IMG/VR virus record: IMGVR_UViG_3300023087_000023
Coordinates: 1-49,366 of that record
DNA: 49,366 nucleotides
Origin: a virus
Strand: one strand, 5' to 3'
Under the pieces are notes generated by a model that saw only the letters and a list, made by a program, of their open reading frames with translations, was not told the DNA's origin and ran no database searches. How positions within the stretch are numbered: position 1 is the stretch's first letter; the number at the start of each line of letters is the position of its first letter. A program made the translations under genes and the position numbers. Shown here one piece after another: positions 8,249 through 36,180 of this stretch.

Positions 8249-8746
8249 TTATTTATCTTTATCAAGCCCTTTAAGCTTCTCTAATAGACTATTTCTGTCT
8301 GTAACAACGTAGCCTTCGCCGCTTACAATATCGCCGTCAACTCCGCCTTCTTTGTCCATTTTTTCTTTTTTAAGTTGTAGTTCAACCATTTTCAGTTTTT
8401 TATCTAACTTGGCAACTTTAGCATCAAGACCTGTTTTTAACATTCCTCCTGCAACTTCGAAAACTCTACCACTATAACGGCTTTCAACATTCATGCCTAA
8501 ATCCATTAGGTCTTCGTATGCTTGCATAGCTTTATCTGCAACTTCATTCAATTCTTTATCTGCCATTTCGCCTAGGCCTTTTACAGCAGGAAGTGCAGCA
8601 TTGATTTTATCAAAGTCTGCAATATCTCTAAAAGTTTGAGCTTGCTCTATTTCATACTGTTTTTGATCTTCTTGTTGAGACTCTGCTTGTTCAACTATCT
8701 CTTTTGCATCCGGCAAATTAAGTAGATCTTCTAATTTTTTAGTCAT
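8249..8746 (-). CDS. gp16: Putative terminase small subunit gp16
   Basis: The small terminase subunit binds DNA ends and regulates the gp17 motor. The 165 residues are close to T4 gp16 (164) in length and share its make-up: an acidic N-terminus beginning with a short LEDLLNLPD helix, a long central coiled-coil region (about residues 60-130) and a Lys-rich C-terminus. There is no sharp catalytic motif to confirm it, so the call rests on length, composition and position in the packaging cluster upstream of gp17. It begins with a weak AATGGAAA-type ribosome site after a GATAAATA octamer. Confidence 0.65.
   Translation of the reverse strand: MTKKLEDLLNLPDAKEIVEQAESQQEDQKQYEIEQAQTFRDIADFDKINAALPAVKGLGEMADKELNEVADKAMQAYEDLMDLGMNVESRYSGRVFEVAGGMLKTGLDAKVAKLDKKLKMVELQLKKEKMDKEGGVDGDIVSGEGYVVTDRNSLLEKLKGLDKDK
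8250..8257 (-). promoter_or_regulatory. Late-promoter-like octamer upstream of the 185-residue gene
   Basis: GATAAATA on the minus strand, 26 nt before the ATG at 8223 and overlapping the stop codon of gp16. Spacing leaves room for a short leader with a Shine-Dalgarno. Confidence 0.5.
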
Positions 8747-8770
8747 TGTATTTCCATTATATGCTACTAT

Positions 8771-8778
8771 TATTTATC
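8771..8778 (-). promoter_or_regulatory. Late-promoter-like octamer upstream of gp16
   Basis: GATAAATA on the minus strand, 24 nt before the gp16 ATG and touching the stop codon of the sulfotransferase gene. Confidence 0.5.
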
Positions 8779-9356
8779 TAAGGAGTGTATTCAAAATAAT
8801 CTAAATCTTTATGAAAATGTTTTTTTATGCATCTAATATATTCTGTAGAATATTCTGTTATTGTTTTTTCTTTATAATTGTGTATTTGTTGTGTTAAAGG
8901 TTCATTACAATTTACTAATGTTTGTATTTGCATAAAATCTTTTTCCAAAGATTCGTATCTTAAAATTATATCTACACCTTCTATAAAATCAGTTTGACAT
9001 TTTACATTTCTAAGTTTATTTGCAACACAATAATCAATGTAATAAACAATTCCTTTTTCCCATGCTTGTTGCAGGGGATAATAATAATTTTCTAACATGT
9101 CTATTTTATTTTGCTTTTTTGCTCTCCAAATACTTTTAGGTATTTTGTGTTTCCCCCAATTGTATAAACTTAACATTCTTGAATATGTGTTTCTTACTAT
9201 TGTAAAACTAGTGTCATACTTCGTCGGTCTATTTCTTTCAATCCTTTCAGCTAGTGTAAGATGTCCAATTTGTTGATGGTGTATCTTATTTTGTTTCAAC
9301 CAGGCCTGAACACTTGCTCCTGCTGTTTTAGGTATATGGACGAACGCAATTTTCAT
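8778..9356 (-). CDS. Sulfotransferase-family protein
   Basis: A 192-residue member of the PAPS-dependent sulfotransferase superfamily, which moves sulfate onto hydroxyls of glycans or small molecules. The N-terminus FVHIPKTAGAS (residues 5-15) is the 5'-phosphosulfate loop and VRNTYSRMLSLY (54-65) is the 3'-phosphate-binding motif with R55 and S59. A tyrosine- and lysine-rich acceptor region follows. It overlaps gp4 by four bases (ATGA), so it is translationally coupled to a head-completion gene and likely made late. It is more AT-rich than its neighbours, which may indicate separate acquisition. Target unknown: virion fibres, host surface polysaccharide and a small molecule are all possible. 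Confidence 0.82.
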   Translation of the reverse strand: MKIAFVHIPKTAGASVQAWLKQNKIHHQQIGHLTLAERIERNRPTKYDTSFTIVRNTYSRMLSLYNWGKHKIPKSIWRAKKQNKIDMLENYYYPLQQAWEKGIVYYIDYCVANKLRNVKCQTDFIEGVDIILRYESLEKDFMQIQTLVNCNEPLTQQIHNYKEKTITEYSTEYIRCIKKHFHKDLDYFEYTP

Positions 9357-9790
9357 TTTCTGCGTCCATTATGAAATATATCATCCTCTGTTACTATACG
9401 GAAATATATACCATTTTGTTTACAATAGGCTCTAGCTGCTTCCCACTTAGCTTGATTTACAATCCAATGTGCTTGATTAGCTCTATTGCGTCCTACTTTT
9501 TCTTTGAGTGTTTGATTTTTTGGCTTGACTTCTATAAGTTCAACTCGTTGTTTTCCTTTGCGGTCACTATATACTATAAAGAAGTCAGGAACATATATTG
9601 TCTGTTTTCCGCTCAGCGGATTACGATATGGTATTTTTATAGATTCACTAGCCCATTTTGCTACACTTGGATGCTCATCGCAAAATTTCATAAAGGTAAA
9701 CTCCCAACCACTTCTATATGTAGGAGTTCTATTGCCAATATATTTGTCAGGATTTTTTAGATTAAATTTACCTTGGGCAAATCTTGACAT
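9353..9790 (-). CDS. gp4: Head completion protein gp4 (TnsA-like nuclease fold)
   Basis: T4 gp4 is needed to complete DNA-filled heads before tail joining. The 145 residues are the usual length. The protein opens with the family signature FAQGKFNLKNPDKYIGN and then shows a PD-(D/E)xK-like core: E29 in SGWEF, PDF in YVPDFFIV (about residues 68-75) and ELIEVKPK (about 85-92). This supports the view that gp4 proteins are nuclease-fold relatives of the TnsA/VSR group. Ribosome site AGGA. It ends in an ATGA overlap with the sulfotransferase gene and follows the 119-residue gene by 10 bases, so all three are probably one transcript. Confidence 0.88.
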   Translation of the reverse strand: MSRFAQGKFNLKNPDKYIGNRTPTYRSGWEFTFMKFCDEHPSVAKWASESIKIPYRNPLSGKQTIYVPDFFIVYSDRKGKQRVELIEVKPKNQTLKEKVGRNRANQAHWIVNQAKWEAARAYCKQNGIYFRIVTEDDIFHNGRRK

Positions 9791-9800
9791 AGTCTCAGTC

Positions 9801-10160
9801 CTATACTATAATATTTCTTTGTTCGTATAATGACAGCACTGAGTTTTTCTTAAAGCCAATAACACTAGTTTTTGGTCTGTATAGATTTAATATTTGTGAT
9901 ATAACATTGTTTATTTCAACATCATTAAAACCTTTGAGAGTATCTAACAATTTGAACACAGGAACATTATCAATTTTTGCTTGTTGTAAAAAAATAGCTG
10001 CTGTGTTTATCGCAGACAATCTATCAAAACCTCTTTTCAAGAAATATGTTACTACTGCACTAACATCATTTGCATTATAACTAATTTGTTCCTTAAAATA
10101 GTTGTTGAAAATAATTTGTGTGTCGTCTAGCTTTAATGATTCAGGATTATTAGATTGCAT
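9801..10160 (-). CDS. Small hypothetical protein coupled to the tube-like gene
   Basis: A 119-residue mostly helical protein that I do not recognise. The start ATG at 10160 overlaps the end of the upstream tube-like gene by 11 bases, which implies translational coupling. No motif, membrane segment or Cys pair is visible. Its place between a tail-tube-like protein and gp4 suggests a small tail or baseplate factor, or an assembly chaperone. Confidence 0.72.
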   Translation of the reverse strand: MQSNNPESLKLDDTQIIFNNYFKEQISYNANDVSAVVTYFLKRGFDRLSAINTAAIFLQQAKIDNVPVFKLLDTLKGFNDVEINNVISQILNLYRPKTSVIGFKKNSVLSLYEQRNIIV

Positions 10161-11397
10161 TTTGTATTTCCAGTGCTGCTTTCATGAAAGTAAATATTTT
10201 ATAATCGCCACTCAGTGCTTGTTCTTGTATATCTGTAAGTATAATAGACTGTTCACTTGGTGATAATCGTAAATAAGCTTCATAATCTAATCCTTCTACA
10301 TACCCTGTGTTCAAAAGTTTTGCAAGAAAACTATTATATGCAGTGGGATTATCTGTAAGTAAATTATAAGTTGTTTCTGGATCTCCAGAAACTCTATCAA
10401 CTTTAAGTATTGCATCAGGCAAGTTGTTAGATTGTGTGTCTCTAACAGGAATTAGATATCCGGGAATAGTGTTATTGGTATTAGGAAATATAGGGGTTTG
10501 GGAGAATTGCTGGCTGGTTATTTTGCCAAACACATCTAAACCAGGTGCATCATTAGTGCCAAAAGGTAAATTAAAATCAAAAATATCTTCAACTATTTTT
10601 CCTATTGTTGGTAAAACAAAATCAGAAGTTTTATTATTCACTGCACTACTTAGTGGACTAAATGTGTTATCATATCCTGTTTCTGCATCAGTAAAGTTTT
10701 TAGGTTCTCCATCTTCTCCTACTGTCCCGCTATCATAAAGCACACTTTCATAAGCAATAGTTATTGAGTTTTCATTCATTTCATTACCGCTTGAAGAATC
10801 TACAGAGCCATGTTCCCAACCTGAAAGTAAAGGATTAACAAGTGTATAACTGTACCAATTTTGTAGGCTCAATTGGTATATTTTAATCGTACTAAAAAAC
10901 GGACCATCTAAAAAATTATTCAATCCATAGTTAGGTGTTATACTACTATATTTGTCTCTAGGTGCAAAGCTGCCGTCGGGTGTAAAAAATGATCCACCTA
11001 GGACGTGATTGCCATCTTGGAAATAAAATCTATAATATTCTTCTAGCATAGATCTTGTAGCACCTAGATTGTCATCATGTAATACTATGCGAATATCTTG
11101 ATAGTCTATTCTCGTTTGCAGATTTTTCTTACGATTATACTGTTGTTTATTTTGTATATCTGCTCTATACGCAGGTAAGTCTGCACTCTTAACAAGCACA
11201 CCTATTTGTTTGTTATATTCTCGTGTGTTAGAATTGAAACTGACATCGGCTGCTGGTTCAAATACAACATGATATAAAAATTTTACTTTAGGGGAAAATA
11301 AATGTCCGTATTGCGTGAATAAATTATTCGCATGACGTGCATCACGCAAATGTGTGTTAATTTCCCTAGGGATTATGAAACTATTCCACCAACTCAT
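10150..11397 (-). CDS. Tail-tube-like protein, candidate baseplate-tube junction (gp54/gp48-like)
   Basis: A 415-residue protein with two segments resembling the gp19 tube fold: KVKFLYHVVFEP with VLVKSADLPAYRAD in the N-terminal third, and IKIYQLSLQNWYSY with NSITIAYESVLYD near the middle. The corresponding gp19 parts are YRFRVLFENF, DRFQLVGCYLES and DAVTVSLSIRYD. In T4 the gp48 and gp54 proteins are tube-like and start tube assembly on the baseplate, and this gene following gp19 fits that role. The C-terminal 150 residues are an extra domain without recognisable motif. GATAAATA is 5 nt before the ATG and no Shine-Dalgarno is seen, so translation may be leaderless. Assignment to gp54 rather than gp48 is uncertain. 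Confidence 0.6.
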   Translation of the reverse strand: MSWWNSFIIPREINTHLRDARHANNLFTQYGHLFSPKVKFLYHVVFEPAADVSFNSNTREYNKQIGVLVKSADLPAYRADIQNKQQYNRKKNLQTRIDYQDIRIVLHDDNLGATRSMLEEYYRFYFQDGNHVLGGSFFTPDGSFAPRDKYSSITPNYGLNNFLDGPFFSTIKIYQLSLQNWYSYTLVNPLLSGWEHGSVDSSSGNEMNENSITIAYESVLYDSGTVGEDGEPKNFTDAETGYDNTFSPLSSAVNNKTSDFVLPTIGKIVEDIFDFNLPFGTNDAPGLDVFGKITSQQFSQTPIFPNTNNTIPGYLIPVRDTQSNNLPDAILKVDRVSGDPETTYNLLTDNPTAYNSFLAKLLNTGYVEGLDYEAYLRLSPSEQSIILTDIQEQALSGDYKIFTFMKAALEIQNAI

Positions 11398-11402
11398 ATT
11401 AG

Positions 11403-11410
11403 TATTTATC
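11403..11410 (-). promoter_or_regulatory. Late-promoter-like octamer 5 nt from the tube-like gene
   Basis: GATAAATA on the minus strand followed by CTAAT then ATG. It lies just after the terminator that ends the gp19 transcript. With T4 late-promoter geometry the first transcribed base would be the A of the ATG. Confidence 0.55.
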
Positions 11411-20993: not shown

Positions 20994-22133
20994 ATGAAAG
21001 TTCTAGTAATTGGCGACATTATTATTGACAAATATATCACAGGAACATCAACACGATTGAGTCCTGAAGCTCCTGTGCCTGTTGTTAGTCAACAAGATTT
21101 CTGGGAGCAACTAGGAGGTGCTGCACTTGTGCACACTAATTTAGTTAGTTTAGGTGTAGATGTAGAAATGTTAGACTTGTCATATCCTAAATGCGTTAAA
21201 ACCCGTGTGCTGTGTGATGGGCATTACGTTACACGTATAGATCAAGATTATAAAACAGACGGCGGAAAAACACTTGACATTATTAAGGAAAAAGATTTTT
21301 CTGCATATGACATTGTAATACTAAGTGATTACAATAAAGGTGTGCTAGAATACTCACAACAAATTATAGAACACATCAACAAATACAATTGTAAAATTAT
21401 TGTAGATCCTAAACGTCATTTTAGTTTTTATCAAGGTGCTTGGTTAGTTAAACCTAATAAAAAAGAGTTTGAAGATTTAGGTTTTACAAATTGGACTGGC
21501 AATATAATTATTACTGCTGCTAGTGATCCTACTATAGCACAAATAGACAGTGAATATTATACTATAAAAACAGATCCTGTAGAAGTAAACGATGTTACAG
21601 GAGCAGGTGATTGTTTTCTTGCTACGTTTGTTTATGGTATGAGTCAAAACAAAAGTTACGAAGAATCTATTAGATTAGCAGTCAAAGGTGCAACAGAATC
21701 AGTCAAACACACTGGCACATATGTAGTTAAACCTGAAGATTTGCAGTATCGCACAATATTTACAAATGGTGTGTTTGATATATTACATAAAGGTCATTTA
21801 ACACTATTACAAGAAGCTCGGTCGCTAGGTGAAAAACTTGTAGTAGGTATTAACAGTGATGCTAGTACAAAACGTCTCAAAGGAGATAGTCGTCCTATAA
21901 ACACAGAACAAACACGCAAAGAACAATTAGAAATATTGTCTTGGGTAGACGAAGTTGTTGTATTTGATGAAGACACACCTTATGAATTAATTAAAAAACT
22001 AAATCCTGACATGATTGTCAAGGGTGGAGATTACACTGTAGAACAAGTAGTTGGGCATGACATTGTGCCTGTAAAAATTATTCCTACAGTAAAAGGATAC
22101 AGTACAACAAGTATTATAGAGAAGAGCAAATGA
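20994..22133 (+). CDS. hldE: Bifunctional heptose-7-phosphate kinase / heptose-1-phosphate adenylyltransferase
   Basis: HldE makes ADP-D-glycero-D-manno-heptose: it phosphorylates heptose-7-phosphate at C1 and later joins the 1-phosphate to AMP. Residues 1-250 form a ribokinase-type PfkB kinase with N-terminal VIGDIIIDKYITG and a signature VTGAGDCF (201-208, catalytic D206). Residues 255-379 form a nucleotidyltransferase with FTNGVFDILHKGH (HxGH at 265-268), RLKGDSRPI and VKGGDYTVEQVVG, close to the E. coli HldE C-terminus. The 379 residues are about 100 fewer than E. coli HldE (477), with the loss in the kinase half. No Shine-Dalgarno, start codon at the predicted mRNA start. Ends in an ATGA overlap with hldD. 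Confidence 0.92.
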   Translation: MKVLVIGDIIIDKYITGTSTRLSPEAPVPVVSQQDFWEQLGGAALVHTNLVSLGVDVEMLDLSYPKCVKTRVLCDGHYVTRIDQDYKTDGGKTLDIIKEKDFSAYDIVILSDYNKGVLEYSQQIIEHINKYNCKIIVDPKRHFSFYQGAWLVKPNKKEFEDLGFTNWTGNIIITAASDPTIAQIDSEYYTIKTDPVEVNDVTGAGDCFLATFVYGMSQNKSYEESIRLAVKGATESVKHTGTYVVKPEDLQYRTIFTNGVFDILHKGHLTLLQEARSLGEKLVVGINSDASTKRLKGDSRPINTEQTRKEQLEILSWVDEVVVFDEDTPYELIKKLNPDMIVKGGDYTVEQVVGHDIVPVKIIPTVKGYSTTSIIEKSK

Positions 22134-22954
22134 AAATATTAGTAACAGGACACAAAGGATTTATTGGATCAAATCTTGCATTGTATTTACAATCACAAGG
22201 ACATGAAGTTGAAGGTTGGGAATACATTCCTAACACAATACCGGATCCTAGTAGCTATGACTGGGTCATACATTTAGGTGCTAATAGTTCTACTACAGAA
22301 ACAAATGTAGAAGAAATTATGGAAACTAATTTTGAGTTTAGTGTGCGTTTAGCACAAGCATGTGATATGATGGGGGTCAATTTGCAATATGCATCTAGTG
22401 CAAGTGTGTACGGTCCTGAAAGACATTTTATAGAAGAAGGGCCATTACAACCAAAGTCTGCGTATGCATGGACCAAATATTTGTTTGACAGATTTGTAAA
22501 TCAGTTAAAAGACGATTTCAGTATAAAAATTCAAGGATTTAGATATTTTAATGTTTATGGTAATGGCGAAGATCATAAACTAGATCAAGCAAGTCCTTAT
22601 ACTAAATTTATAAAACAAGCCAAAGAAAACGGTGTTATTAAATTATTCGAAAATAGTGAAAACTACAAACGAGATTTTATCTGTGTAGAAGATATTTGTC
22701 GTGTACATGAAAAAATGTTTAATGTAGATCAGTCAGGTATATGGAATGTAGGAACCGGAAGACCAGTAAGTTTTGAAACTGTAGGTCGTGAGATAGCAAA
22801 AAAATACAATGCAGAAATAGATTACATTCCAATTCCTGATAATTTAAAAGGTCAGTACCAAGACTATACATGCGCAAATTTAGATAAGCTGTATGATACT
22901 ATAGATATAGAATGGACAAACATAGAGGATTATATTAATGCAAGAACCAACTAG
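22130..22954 (+). CDS. hldD: ADP-glycero-manno-heptose 6-epimerase-like (HldD)
   Basis: HldD converts ADP-D,D-heptose to ADP-L,D-heptose. The 274 residues (E. coli: 310) form an extended SDR: GHKGFIGS at 7-14 for NAD(P) binding, S90/S92 with Y112-x3-K116 (YAWTK) as the catalytic core, and GFRYFNVYGNGEDHKLDQAS, which matches the HldD signature (FNVYGP..HK). That match and the gene order point to HldD rather than a general NAD sugar epimerase. It overlaps hldE by 4 bases and the cupin gene by 17, so translation is likely coupled. Confidence 0.9.
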   Translation: MKILVTGHKGFIGSNLALYLQSQGHEVEGWEYIPNTIPDPSSYDWVIHLGANSSTTETNVEEIMETNFEFSVRLAQACDMMGVNLQYASSASVYGPERHFIEEGPLQPKSAYAWTKYLFDRFVNQLKDDFSIKIQGFRYFNVYGNGEDHKLDQASPYTKFIKQAKENGVIKLFENSENYKRDFICVEDICRVHEKMFNVDQSGIWNVGTGRPVSFETVGREIAKKYNAEIDYIPIPDNLKGQYQDYTCANLDKLYDTIDIEWTNIEDYINARTN

Positions 22955-23342
22955 ATTAAGTGGCCTTCAAAAGAAAGGTTGGGGTTATGAGCTTATTTGG
23001 GCAACTACTGATCGTTATTGTGGTAAACTAATGGTTTTTGATCGCGGCGGAGCAAAATTTAGTATGCACTTCCACAAAGAAAAAGACGAAACCTGGTTTG
23101 TAAACAGTGGTAGATTTTTAGTAAAATGGATAGACACTGACACTGCAAAACTAAATCAACGAGAACTAAAAGAAGGCGATACTTGGCATAATCCACCTTT
23201 GCAGCCGCATCAATTGATTGCTGTTGTACCAGGCACTATAACTGAAGTAAGCACTGCTGACAGTGTTGAAGATAATTATAGAGTTTTTCCGGGAGATAGT
23301 CAAAAGGAAGAAAATGGGCAGATACAGTCACCTCAAGAATAA
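22938..23342 (+). CDS. Cupin-fold putative sugar isomerase
   Basis: A 134-residue single-domain cupin. The first metal motif is MHFHKEKDETWFV (H-x-H-x5-E) with the second His in PPLQPHQLIAVVPGT; this resembles mannose-6-phosphate isomerase type II and related nucleotide-sugar enzymes. In the cassette it could isomerise a sugar phosphate such as sedoheptulose-7-phosphate, or edit the heptose nucleotide. The known isomerase GmhA is missing here and has a different (SIS) fold, so this would be a novel replacement; that is speculation. Overlaps hldD at its start and gmhB at its end. Confidence 0.75.
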   Translation: MQEPTRLSGLQKKGWGYELIWATTDRYCGKLMVFDRGGAKFSMHFHKEKDETWFVNSGRFLVKWIDTDTAKLNQRELKEGDTWHNPPLQPHQLIAVVPGTITEVSTADSVEDNYRVFPGDSQKEENGQIQSPQE

Positions 23343-23919
23343 CATTCTACCGCCTAATAATTTTACCAAGTGTATAGTCGGTTTAGATAGAGACGGCGTA
23401 ATAAATGTAGACAGAGGCGAATATACTTGGCGAAAACAAGACTTTGAAATTATACCTAAGAGCTTAGATGCAATTGCACTAATAAGAAATAAAGGACACA
23501 AAGTTGTAATCATTACTAATCAAGGTGGGATATCTAAAGGTTTGTATACAGAAGATGATGTAAATTTGTTGCATCAACACCTTTTAGATCTTTTAGGAAA
23601 GGCAGGGTGTCCTAGTATAGACGGGATATATTTCAGTGCTACAAGTTTCAAAAACGATCCTTGGGCAAAACCAAATACTGGCATGTTTAAGAAAGCATCA
23701 GAAGATGTCAAATCGATAAAATGGCCAAATGGATTTTATGTTGGAGATAAAATTACCGATCTGAAGGCTGCACATAAAATAGGAGCAACACCGGTACTAG
23801 TGCGTACAGGTCACGGCAGAGAAACCGAAGAGCTAATGCAATCTAGGTATACTTATAAATCTATTCACAAAAAAACAAAAGTATATAATACCTTGTGGGA
23901 ATTTGCACAAGCACTTTAG
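23314..23919 (+). CDS. gmhB: Heptose-1,7-bisphosphate 7-phosphatase-like HAD protein
   Basis: GmhB removes the 7-phosphate from heptose-1,7-bisphosphate between the two HldE steps. From ATG 23314 (AAGGAAG ribosome site) the 201 residues contain the HAD motifs of histidinol-phosphatase/GmhB type: GLDRDGVIN (D25, D27), VIITNQGGISKG, the Lys motif KPNTGMF (K119) and YVGDKITDL (D145, D149). The Cys-rich zinc loop of typical GmhB is absent. The frame upstream of 23314 lies inside the cupin gene and is not used. It closes the cassette, and the last bases form a hairpin with the convergent fibre gene. Confidence 0.88.
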   Translation: MGRYSHLKNNILPPNNFTKCIVGLDRDGVINVDRGEYTWRKQDFEIIPKSLDAIALIRNKGHKVVIITNQGGISKGLYTEDDVNLLHQHLLDLLGKAGCPSIDGIYFSATSFKNDPWAKPNTGMFKKASEDVKSIKWPNGFYVGDKITDLKAAHKIGATPVLVRTGHGRETEELMQSRYTYKSIHKKTKVYNTLWEFAQAL

Positions 23920-33208: not shown

Positions 33209-33775
33209 ATGCAAAATCTACAGTTATTTCCTACCAATGTTTACAAAGATTATATTAACGAAAACATGAGATTAGATCTTCTATCTCTATGTAACAAATA
33301 TACGGCGGAAACAACTACAAATTTATTACACATAGAAAACTTTCCTAGCACCCTTGCAAATCAAGAATTGCAAAACAATGTCAATAATGAAATAGTTGTA
33401 AAAATGGTTTTCAATTTTTTGTTTGAAAAAGTGAAGGAAATATCGTATGCTAACGGCGTTACACTAACACAAGAAGATATAAGGCCGTATGGCTTTTTTA
33501 GTTCTATGAATAAAGGTGCATACCTAAGACAACATAGTCATAAGGATTGTAAATTTAGTGGTATAATATATTTAGAAGTAGGTGACGATGTTCCTGGGTT
33601 ACTTTTTCACGATCCTAGACCTTTGGCAAAATTTACAAATTCTCAAGAACATCAATCCCTATATCAAGTAAAAGCAGAAAATAATTTATTATTAATATGG
33701 GATAATTGGTTAGACCATGAAGTATTACCAAAAAGCAATGCCCAACCTAGAAAGTCATTTACATTTAATTTATAA
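33209..33775 (+). CDS. 2OG-Fe(II) oxygenase family protein 1
   Basis: A 188-residue protein of the 2-oxoglutarate/Fe(II) dioxygenase type, which usually hydroxylates an amino acid, peptide, sugar or base. The iron ligands are likely H111 and D113 in QHSHKDCKFSGIIYLE and H170 in WDNWLDHEVLP; R181 in PRKSFTFN would bind 2OG. This is the layout of the short phage and bacterial family whose C-terminus reads W-L-x-H-x-V-x-P ... R-x-S-x-x-F-N. The substrate is unknown. It sits in the plus-strand block directly before a second, different oxygenase. Confidence 0.8.
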   Translation: MQNLQLFPTNVYKDYINENMRLDLLSLCNKYTAETTTNLLHIENFPSTLANQELQNNVNNEIVVKMVFNFLFEKVKEISYANGVTLTQEDIRPYGFFSSMNKGAYLRQHSHKDCKFSGIIYLEVGDDVPGLLFHDPRPLAKFTNSQEHQSLYQVKAENNLLLIWDNWLDHEVLPKSNAQPRKSFTFNL

Positions 33776-33784
33776 GGAAAGCTA

Positions 33785-34381
33785 ATGGATAGTGATTTTA
33801 AAGAACATATTATGTGGATGGAAGTTCCTGTACACTTCTGGGAATTTTCTATGCACGATAGCCAAGAGTATACTGTAAATGAATTACACAAAGAAATAGA
33901 AAAAATCATTAAAAAAGTAGGCGATGGTCAAAAAAATGCTACAAATGTCAAGGCCATGATGACAAAATGGAATATGTTAGAATATAAACCATTTGAACTG
34001 ATTGCAAAAAAAGCTGCAAAAATTTGCGAAGATTGGCATGCAGAAAAAACAGATTTAGATCTTGTAACTTTTATGACTACATGTTGGGGATCTATATATA
34101 CTAGAGGAAACTACAGCGAAAGGCATGCTCATGTACCTGCTTTATATAGTTGGGTATACTACGTTAAAGTCGATGATAATTCTGCTCCTATATACTTTCC
34201 TAATAATCCAGGATTTTACTATAAACCTACAAGCGGTACGGGAATTATTTTTCCCGGATGGTTAGATCATGAAGTTCCGCCGCACGAAAGTGACGATGAA
34301 CGAATAATTGTTGTTGGTAATATAGAAGGAACAGGTAGTGTCAACTACCCTCAACGTTCCTTCTTAGATACAAAGAATTAA
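33785..34381 (+). CDS. 2OG-Fe(II) oxygenase family protein 2
   Basis: A 198-residue protein with a second version of the double-stranded beta-helix core: RHAHVPALYSWVYYVK (H114, H116), GTGIIFPGWLDHEVPPH (distal H162) and DERIIVVGNI (R173). The first iron motif is H-x-H rather than H-x-D, so the ligand set is less certain than in the preceding protein. AAGGAAA lies before the ATG. Its stop overlaps the stop of the convergent carbamoyltransferase gene by 4 bases with no hairpin. Overall similarity to the previous oxygenase is limited to the fold motifs, so this does not look like a recent duplication. Confidence 0.75.
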   Translation: MDSDFKEHIMWMEVPVHFWEFSMHDSQEYTVNELHKEIEKIIKKVGDGQKNATNVKAMMTKWNMLEYKPFELIAKKAAKICEDWHAEKTDLDLVTFMTTCWGSIYTRGNYSERHAHVPALYSWVYYVKVDDNSAPIYFPNNPGFYYKPTSGTGIIFPGWLDHEVPPHESDDERIIVVGNIEGTGSVNYPQRSFLDTKN

Positions 34382-36180
34382 TCATTTTTTATTGTAACTA
34401 ACTTTCCTAATTCAGGAAGATATAAGTATTCTATTTGACTATTTGCAAGAGTGCGCAAAGCATCATCTAAAGTTTCTACTAAAGGTTCACCGCCTAAATT
34501 AAAACTTGTATTAAAAATAATAGGACAGCCTGTTACTTTTTTAAATTCTTTAATTAATCTATAGTATAAAGGATTTTGTTCTTCGGTAACAGTTTGAATA
34601 CGACACGTACCATCTACATGAATAATTGACGGAATCTTTTCTTCTACTCCTGGCTTACAATTTACAGCATACATCATGTAAGGTGTTTCTTCCATGCCTC
34701 TTAAATCAAACCAATCGTGTACATCTTCTTTAAGAATACTTCCTGCAAATGGTCTAAAATATTCTCTACGCTTTACAGTATTAACATGATCTTTTCCGTT
34801 AGGATCTGTAGGATCATATAGGATACTCCTGTTACCTAACGCTCTTGGACCAGCTTCTGACTTTCCTTGGAATAAACTTACAATATTTTTGGACGTAATT
34901 AATTCGATGACATCTTCATCCGATGCATTGCTAATTTCTGCATTATATTGTTCAACCAAATTATATAATTTGTCGTAGGATGGTTCAAAACCAAGATATA
35001 TTTTATCTTTTGAGTAATCTACAGGTTCAAACTCATGCTCAAAGTTAGATATTAAGTCGTGCCATACTAATAATGCTGCACCAATAGCAGTTCCTGCATC
35101 GGAGCTAATTGGTTCTACATATAAATTAATATTTTGCTTATTAAGTTCTTCTAAGTACCAATAGTTTGCAACACAATTAAGACCATAACCTCCACACAGA
35201 ACAACATTTTTGTTTCCTGTTCTTTTTACTGCATCGAGTATTAAAGTAAGTGCTTGCTGTTGTGTTGCTTTTTGCACAGCATATGCAACGTCTCTTCTAT
35301 TTTGAAGCTTTGTTAAATCATCAGTATCGCGGTTTGATAAAAATTCGTTTAATCCTCTATCAATGTATGCACCATTCGGATAAGTAGAATAAATTAAATT
35401 TTTATTAGCATAACCTGTATGTTCATCTATAACATTTGGAACTTTAGGATTTTCTTTACCGTATGGCGCTAACCCCATTGTTTTGCCTGCTTCGATAAAA
35501 TGCCATCCGCAGTAGTGTGTAGCTGCTTCATAAATTTTTGTTATACCTGCATGTGTACCTAAAACTGCTTCACAATCTGAATCTTCTTCAAACCATATTG
35601 CTGTAGACATTTTATCTGTTTTGTATGTAGGAACTTCGTCATTACCACAAGCATGTTTGTACAACGTCTCAACTTTATTAGGGTACTCTACATTAAAAAT
35701 AGTTTCTGTTTCCCAAACTCTTCTAGATTCATCGTCTACTTTTACTTCGAAACCAGATCCTGCGCCGTCAATAACTACAGCAGTTGCAGTTTCAAATCCA
35801 CTACGATAAAAAGCACAGGCAGCGTGTAGTTTATGGTGGATACTTCCTAAGTCGATAATTTGTGGGTGTTGATATTCTCCTGGAGACTGCCAGCTAATTA
35901 ATCCTAGTTTTCTAGCCATAGAAAAATATATATCTTCCCCTGTATAATCTACTTTAGGAGAAAACTGTTCTAAAGTTGCAGTATGTGCAATTACAAGATA
36001 GTCTAATTTATCCGTATAATCTAAAATTTTTGCCATGCCGCCAAAAGGAGTTCCGTCATATTTTACTCTTGAAATCCGTTCTTCTTCTATAGAAAATACT
36101 ACTTCTCCATTTTTAAGCAAGCATAATGCACCGTTATGGCCGCGTACTAATGCTGCAATCCAAATATCTTTTTCTTTCAT
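34378..36180 (-). CDS. NodU/CmcH-family carbamoyltransferase
   Basis: These enzymes use carbamoyl phosphate and ATP to make carbamoyl-adenylate and then carbamoylate a hydroxyl of a sugar or other acceptor. The 600 residues match the whole family length. The N-terminal half has GHNGALCLLKNGEVVFSIEEER and the metal-binding HHKLHAACAFY with VIDGAGSG. The C-terminal YrdC-like half has LFQGKSEAGPRALGNRSIL and REYFRPFAGSIL, followed by TCRIQTV and IIFNTSFNLGGEPLV. It lies 3 bases after the GT9 gene and shares its promoter, so the two probably act on the same glycan. Family members in other phages have been linked to modified-base carbamoylation; that alternative cannot be excluded. Confidence 0.92.
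   Translation of the reverse strand: MKEKDIWIAALVRGHNGALCLLKNGEVVFSIEEERISRVKYDGTPFGGMAKILDYTDKLDYLVIAHTATLEQFSPKVDYTGEDIYFSMARKLGLISWQSPGEYQHPQIIDLGSIHHKLHAACAFYRSGFETATAVVIDGAGSGFEVKVDDESRRVWETETIFNVEYPNKVETLYKHACGNDEVPTYKTDKMSTAIWFEEDSDCEAVLGTHAGITKIYEAATHYCGWHFIEAGKTMGLAPYGKENPKVPNVIDEHTGYANKNLIYSTYPNGAYIDRGLNEFLSNRDTDDLTKLQNRRDVAYAVQKATQQQALTLILDAVKRTGNKNVVLCGGYGLNCVANYWYLEELNKQNINLYVEPISSDAGTAIGAALLVWHDLISNFEHEFEPVDYSKDKIYLGFEPSYDKLYNLVEQYNAEISNASDEDVIELITSKNIVSLFQGKSEAGPRALGNRSILYDPTDPNGKDHVNTVKRREYFRPFAGSILKEDVHDWFDLRGMEETPYMMYAVNCKPGVEEKIPSIIHVDGTCRIQTVTEEQNPLYYRLIKEFKKVTGCPIIFNTSFNLGGEPLVETLDDALRTLANSQIEYLYLPELGKLVTIKND

Follow-up and report, generated by a model that had tools for sequence, protein, structure and literature searches.

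Why should a phage carry a sulfotransferase gene that overlaps gp4, the gene for head completion, and on what might such an enzyme act? The question is raised by one locus of the window, by which we mean the whole 49,366-nt stretch of DNA that was analyzed. The overlap of the two genes had been reported in the initial annotation and was confirmed here with exact coordinates: the TGA of gp4 and the ATG of the sulfotransferase share the four bases ATGA. All of the features that the argument requires lie on the minus strand.

8249-8746, minus strand: gene in the position of gp16 (small terminase); phrog_445, PA5oct gp283
8754-8778, minus strand: conserved element GATAAATAATAGTAGCATATAATGG before gp16, kept in empty and occupied relatives
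8778-9356, minus strand: sulfotransferase open reading frame, 192 aa, ATG start; Sulfotransfer_2 (PF03567), PHROG and structure models
9168-9194, minus strand: 3'-phosphate-binding segment (PB), residues 55-63 RNTYSRMLS, mapped to HS2ST (R55 = R164, S63 = S172)
9261-9263, minus strand: H32, candidate catalytic base, mapped to HS2ST H142; 97% conserved in 156 homologues
9312-9338, minus strand: 5'-phosphosulfate-binding loop (PSB), residues 7-15 HIPKTAGAS, near-invariant in 156 homologues (K10 = HS2ST K83)
9353-9356, minus strand: ATGA stop/start overlap, gp4 TGA with sulfotransferase ATG
9353-9790, minus strand: gp4, head completion/head closure, TnsA-like nuclease fold (phrog_218, E = 1.1e-45; PF08722, E = 1.2e-25)
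9801-10160, minus strand: small conserved gene 5' of gp4 in the same transcription unit, recognized by synteny in relatives
10150-11397, minus strand: tail-tube-like protein (phrog_13438/4542), opening the unit that the sulfotransferase closes
11403-11410, minus strand: GATAAATA, T4-late-promoter-like, found by motif scan; it would head the unit 10150-9801-gp4-sulfotransferase

The source is a marine T4-like phage, of whose virus record the window is a 49-kb fragment. It is likely a jumbo (giant) phage, because the terminases closest to its own, at approximately 55% identity, belong to the PA5oct group (roughly 287 kb) and some contigs that share the window's gene block reach 230-275 kb. The gene in the gp16 position starts 31 nt past the end of the sulfotransferase gene. 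Its match to the small-terminase family phrog_445 is weak (E = 1.3e-4), and it is syntenic with PA5oct gp283, to which it is 38% identical (E = 3e-27); the label gp16, which we use below, appears reasonable, though uncertain.

The initial annotation had called the product a PAPS-dependent sulfotransferase and had proposed an alignment as the check on its PAPS-binding residues. Sulfotransfer_2 (PF03567) is matched narrowly, with a score of 22.9 bits where the curated Pfam cut-off is 22 (E = 1.1e-4), and the match to phrog_3347, 'Galactose-3-O-sulfotransferase', is clear (E = 2.8e-13). What strengthens this narrow Pfam match is a family alignment of 156 sequences from viruses and bacteria, whose signature residues are all present in the window protein: H7, P9, K10, G13, S15, H32, R55, S63 and E135 are kept, each at a position that is 92-100% invariant. 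Conservation reaches 99% for the PSB lysine K10 and 100% for R55 and S63. When the chain of heparan sulfate 2-O-sulfotransferase (HS2ST) in PDB 3F5F/4NDZ was added to a 65-row alignment (A4), K10, H32, R55 and S63 fell on K83, H142, R164 and S172, respectively. According to a review, these enzymes have in common a PSB lysine, a serine of the PB helix and a base that is either histidine or glutamate (PMC11625862), and the H142A variant of HS2ST has less than 1% activity (PMC6094399). With K10, R55 and S63 present, and all tested PAPS-site and catalytic residues intact, the assignment to the PAPS-type sulfotransferases is borne out.

Two AlphaFold models of the protein agree with each other (pLDDT 87.9 and 94.1), and in the model R55 and S63 lie at the turn between a strand (residues 49-54) and a helix (57-81). 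Sulfotransferases fill the best seven PDB places for the first model (E = 3e-3 to 1.5e-2) and the top three for the second. The best E-values of these fold matches are 3e-3 to 6e-3, with low global TM-scores (0.3-0.5), and no PDB structure matched the models at E <= 0.001. Viral predicted structures match with E-values down to about 1e-6 to 2e-7, and many of them are named 'Sulfotransferase family'. A single-protein sequence search against solved structures gave no match; family profiles matched SULT, HS6ST and HS2ST structure entries weakly.

A low Pfam score, a GC content of 28% in the gene versus 37% in the window, and the lack of the gene in the closest relatives (below) could point to a decaying remnant without activity. 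We nevertheless consider decay very improbable: the reading frame is intact, the catalytic and cofactor residues are all kept, the sequence recurs identically in two other metagenome contigs (three contigs in all), and relatives in the same position are under purifying selection. Homologues at 34-41% identity hold the equivalent position, between gp4 and its downstream neighbor (hereafter the slot), in other phages. Among relatives in the slot, dN/dS is 0.11-0.26 for the L012 type, 0.18-0.27 among L085, L086 and L088, and 0.04-0.07 for the L104 type, and from this selection it follows that these sulfotransferases are used. For the window protein itself dN/dS is not measurable, because there is no diverged orthologue above approximately 42% identity. 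A chance or spurious reading frame was ruled out by the Pfam match, the identical copies, the conserved residues and the dN/dS of the slot homologues.

We took 80 relatives of gp4 from IMG/VR and, excluding the identical copy, counted slot contents on 79 contigs (lineage 1). In 55 of the 79, gp4 directly abuts gp16 with a gap of 26-39 nt, and the slot is empty in the nearest relatives, L005 and L006, whose gp4 is 92% identical. A divergent sulfotransferase occupies it in 11 contigs, and in one more (L018) it is cut by the contig end. Two contigs (L009 and L042) hold a tryptophan halogenase there, one (L024) a radical-SAM protein, and five others small ORFs; the remaining contigs have short spacers or end too early. 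The halogenase genes span L009:4357-5832 and L042:3289-4518 (PF04820, E = 6e-92 and 1.5e-62). A profile scan added further occupied slots (L085-L091, L116, L138, L142 and L143), with gp4 identity down to 48%. Some of these hold more than one gene: a tandem pair of different sulfotransferases in L089/L090 (L090:4393-5600), a radical-SAM gene with a sulfotransferase in L116, and in L138 a sulfotransferase with an ORF that is glycosyltransferase-like by eye, without any Pfam match. Sulfotransferases account for 11-12 of the approximately 15 gene-sized cargo genes in this lineage.

The gp4-gp16 locus is a cargo slot, and the window sulfotransferase is an optional cargo gene, missing from close relatives and sitting between conserved genes as a moron or accessory gene does. 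The initial annotation had named two findings that together would speak against it, namely absence of the gene from this locus in all close relatives and loss of the PAPS-binding residues. Since the gene is absent from the closest relatives (L005 and L006, with 55 of 79 slots empty), the former was largely observed; the latter was not, as the residues are retained.

The association with gp4 extends to a second T4-like group, whose gp4 is approximately 33% identical to that of the window. In L104, L120, L125, L146 and L150, a Sulfotransfer_2 gene directly follows gp4, often with an ATGA overlap, and the downstream neighbor is an unrelated 194-aa protein. The slots of 79 relatives of the L104 gp4 comprise 66 that are empty, 6 with Sulfotransfer_2, 3 with Sulfotransfer_4, 2 with an FkbM methyltransferase, 1 with an HNH-like ORF and 1 bare spacer. 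The Sulfotransfer_4 (PF17784) gene lies right after gp4 at L310:3974-4567 (E = 4e-14), and also in L313 and L316, so that sulfotransferases of two Pfam families make up 9 of the 12 cargo genes in this lineage. When only bacterial family members served as seeds of the scan (A3), no upstream neighbor of the viral Sulfotransfer_2 genes was as frequent as gp4, which preceded 10 of the 66 at distances of -26 to 52 nt; a gp4 HMM found 10 adjacent and 3 nearby cases among 69 such genes; both counts include related sequences.

On the tree, the window-type slot proteins form a group (SH-aLRT 85-93) together with L092 and L093, which come from other places, and the other slot types stand apart. We rejected a strictly slot-specific window-type subfamily, since the loosely related L092 and L093 have no gp4 alongside. 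The lineage-1 slot label needs 7 changes on the tree, but by an AU test one origin in that lineage is compatible with the data (p = 0.51), so multiple independent arrivals are not taken as proven. We therefore claim a recurrent address and not a number of independent captures.

What the address says about function is a separate matter. The slot could be a neutral, insertion-tolerant site in which sulfotransferases appear as common marine phage cargo, with position uninformative on function, and we give this reading appreciable, if minority, weight. It fits the variety of cargo (halogenase, radical SAM, FkbM methyltransferase, HNH-like and small ORFs) and the presence of sulfotransferases elsewhere in related phages, such as a cluster beside gp32 in L134. 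The predominance of sulfotransferases among gene-sized cargo in both lineages and the rank of gp4 among upstream neighbors in the bacterially seeded sample argue the other way; shared descent within each lineage is possible (the AU result for lineage 1), so this enrichment is no clean count of independent events. Neutrality of the slot concerns position, and it is compatible with the reading of the enzyme that we favor below.

The boundary of the slot is marked by elements that resemble phage late promoters. The T4 late promoter is TATAAATA, which GATAAATA resembles. The window contains 9 copies of GATAAATA, of which 7 lie within 120 nt 5' of same-strand genes, where about 0.4 would be expected from the space covered (binomial p ~1e-8 for this placement, for a motif chosen after inspection). 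These seven copies have their 5' base at 1999, 8257, 8778, 11410, 17924, 31725 and 45486, all on the minus strand. Judged by motif and placement, the GATAAATA copies, which are mostly before structural genes, likely represent the late-promoter class of this phage group.

The conserved element GATAAATAATAGTAGCATATAATGG consists of such a motif (8771-8778), overlapping the stop codon of the sulfotransferase, and a conserved 20-mer (8754-8773). In empty relatives the gp4 stop codon falls inside GATAAATA, followed by ATAGTAGCATATAATGG and then gp16. Occupied relatives keep the element, and the end of the cargo overlaps or abuts it, as TTAGATAAATA in the window and TGATAAATA in L012; the cargo is placed exactly between gp4 and the late-promoter-like element of gp16. 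The 20-mer ATAATAGTAGCATATAATGG has a single copy in the window, at 8754-8773 on the minus strand (0.01 expected), and its 16-base core was found in 48 loci. GATAAATAATAGTAGCATATAATGG is conserved over a longer stretch than would be needed for a promoter core. The radical-SAM cargo gene at L024:5441-6541 has a copy of the conserved 16-mer AATAGTAGCATATAAT on either side, a pattern that would fit duplication of the element on insertion.

Given this placement of the GATAAATA copies, the motif at 11403-11410 probably heads a unit 10150-9801-gp4 that ends with the sulfotransferase. The conserved late-promoter-like element falls after the sulfotransferase gene, so gp16 probably begins a unit of its own with its own promoter. 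No copy of GATAAATA lies within 120 nt upstream of the sulfotransferase gene, whose ATG overlaps gp4, and the gene would therefore depend on the upstream unit; it acts like a moron, but not an autonomous one. Late expression is plausible, because the four genes of this unit, of which the sulfotransferase gene is the last, are tightly packed behind a late-promoter-like motif. The earlier proposal that the enzyme is made late with the packaging proteins thus stands in part: the timing is plausible, but the coupling is to gp4 and not to packaging genes generally.

As for the acceptor, 7 of 10 scanned neighbors of bacterial homologues are glycan-type genes (glycosyltransferases, flippase-type, GDP-mannose dehydratase, sugar kinase), and in L134 and L095 a family member lies beside gp32 among cytidylyltransferase, GT25 and methyltransferase-like (FkbM-like) genes. 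A glycan would be the likeliest acceptor, because homologues lie among glycosyltransferases and other glycan genes. The cluster in L134 (1746-7581) contains the sulfotransferase with glycosyltransferase-like, GT25 and cytidylyltransferase genes; it is on the same contig as L013, whose gp4-gp16 slot is empty.

A non-glycan acceptor, either tyrosines of a virion protein (perhaps a head or neck protein linked to gp4) or a small molecule of the host, seems unlikely to us. The lasting linkage of the gene to gp4 across two lineages might reflect a substrate that is made or assembled together with gp4, and other cargo of the slot (Trp_halogenase, PF04820, and radical SAM) is of the type that tailors natural products or peptides. 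Bacterial and phage homologues, however, accompany glycan genes, and among the PF03567 seed members whose function is annotated, most are glycosaminoglycan sulfotransferases (PMC11625862). Moreover, most gp4-bearing relatives lack the sulfotransferase, so no assembly step can require it. We rate somewhat lower still the bolder proposal that the enzyme acts on the particle while the head or neck is being completed, so that the virions of some marine T4-like phages would be sulfated; recurrent, separate captures after gp4 in two lineages would then be the genomic trace of this.

Other genes in the window and its relatives bear on supply and context. The 49-kb window contains no APS kinase. PF01583 matches occur in 5 of 10 related records, and we do not claim them as APS kinases; the two that were translated score 28-39 bits against a cut-off of 138.7 for true apsK. 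These APS-kinase-like P-loop proteins are found in L398, L399 and the records behind L013, L148 and L151, and one is fused to an NMNAT-like domain. An ADP-heptose-type cassette (HldE-, HldD-, cupin- and GmhB-like) occupies 20994-23919 on the plus strand of the window. None of its proteins reaches the NCBIfam equivalog cut-off, and the HldE-like one, at 379 aa, is short, with its kinase part matched in pieces; the products may therefore differ from ADP-heptose. At 33209-36180, two adjacent 2OG-Fe(II) oxygenase-like genes (PF13759) face a NodU-type carbamoyltransferase, a grouping that suggests another small-molecule or glycan tailoring set. The initial annotation had joined the sulfotransferase to the heptose and carbamoyl genes as a third sugar-modifying activity; such genes are indeed present, but nothing in the window ties the sulfotransferase to them.

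We favor, with moderate confidence, a soluble and catalytically competent PAPS-dependent Sulfotransfer_2 enzyme, the product of a moron-type cargo gene lying in a permissive slot where a late transcription unit has its 3' end; the likeliest acceptor would be a sugar hydroxyl on a surface glycan. The gene would be lodged behind the tail-tube-like gene, the 9801 gene and gp4, just 5' of the late promoter of gp16, and would be expressed late and translated by coupling to gp4. The predicted sulfotransferase would draw PAPS from the host and hold it with K10, R55 and S63, and H32 would deprotonate the acceptor hydroxyl. That acceptor might be host lipopolysaccharide or polysaccharide, whose sulfation could conceivably protect cells or released progeny against re-adsorption, and less probably a virion glycan.

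Marine phages and giant viruses repeatedly carry sulfotransferases, for which we know of no role. The gp4 slot, which divergent sulfotransferases occupy in both T4-like lineages while close relatives leave it empty, offers natural with/without pairs for testing the candidate roles of host surface remodelling, superinfection exclusion and virion decoration. Should these enzymes sulfate glycans of the host envelope, phages would be an unrecognized source of sulfated surface glycans in marine bacteria.

Phage sulfotransferases have been reported earlier, with their function called unclear (PMC10580990). Annotated examples include those of Stenotrophomonas phage DLP6 (AAY80_051), Prochlorococcus phage P-SSM7 (E3SP23), Ralstonia phage phiRSL1, Synechococcus phages S-T4, S-PRM1 and ACG-2014f, and OM43-phage metagenomic genomes. 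Like the window protein, these are phage-encoded members of the sulfotransferase superfamily; the DLP6 protein is only 23.5% identical, and its gene lies near a DNA polymerase gene, not after gp4. In the phage collection we found no annotated isolate with a gp4-sulfotransferase junction, and a literature search, with few subscription journals covered, yielded neither a dedicated paper on phage-encoded sulfotransferases nor a description of the gp4 slot.

The window protein resembles HS2ST (PF03567; PDB 3F5F/4NDZ) in the equal order of its PSB lysine, catalytic histidine, and PB arginine and serine, and its model has the same strand-loop-helix and strand-turn-helix layout. It differs from HS2ST and other Sulfotransfer_2 enzymes in being short (192 aa), with no membrane anchor seen, and in a sequence too distant for direct PDB detection. 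PA5oct (Arenbergviridae), of the closest isolate group by terminase, shares the order tail tube-tail tube-small gene-gp4-gp16-structural-structural-terminase, but there gp4 adjoins the gp16 counterpart with no cargo. Morons and the 'hyperplastic' regions of cyanophages likewise place optional host-like genes between conserved structural genes and leave the flanking promoter undisturbed; the slot described here differs in that it is set by gp4, its cargo is mostly sulfotransferase, and the insertion abuts a conserved late-promoter-like element. The protein itself adds a member to a known family; what is new is its address after gp4 and the repeated use of that address.
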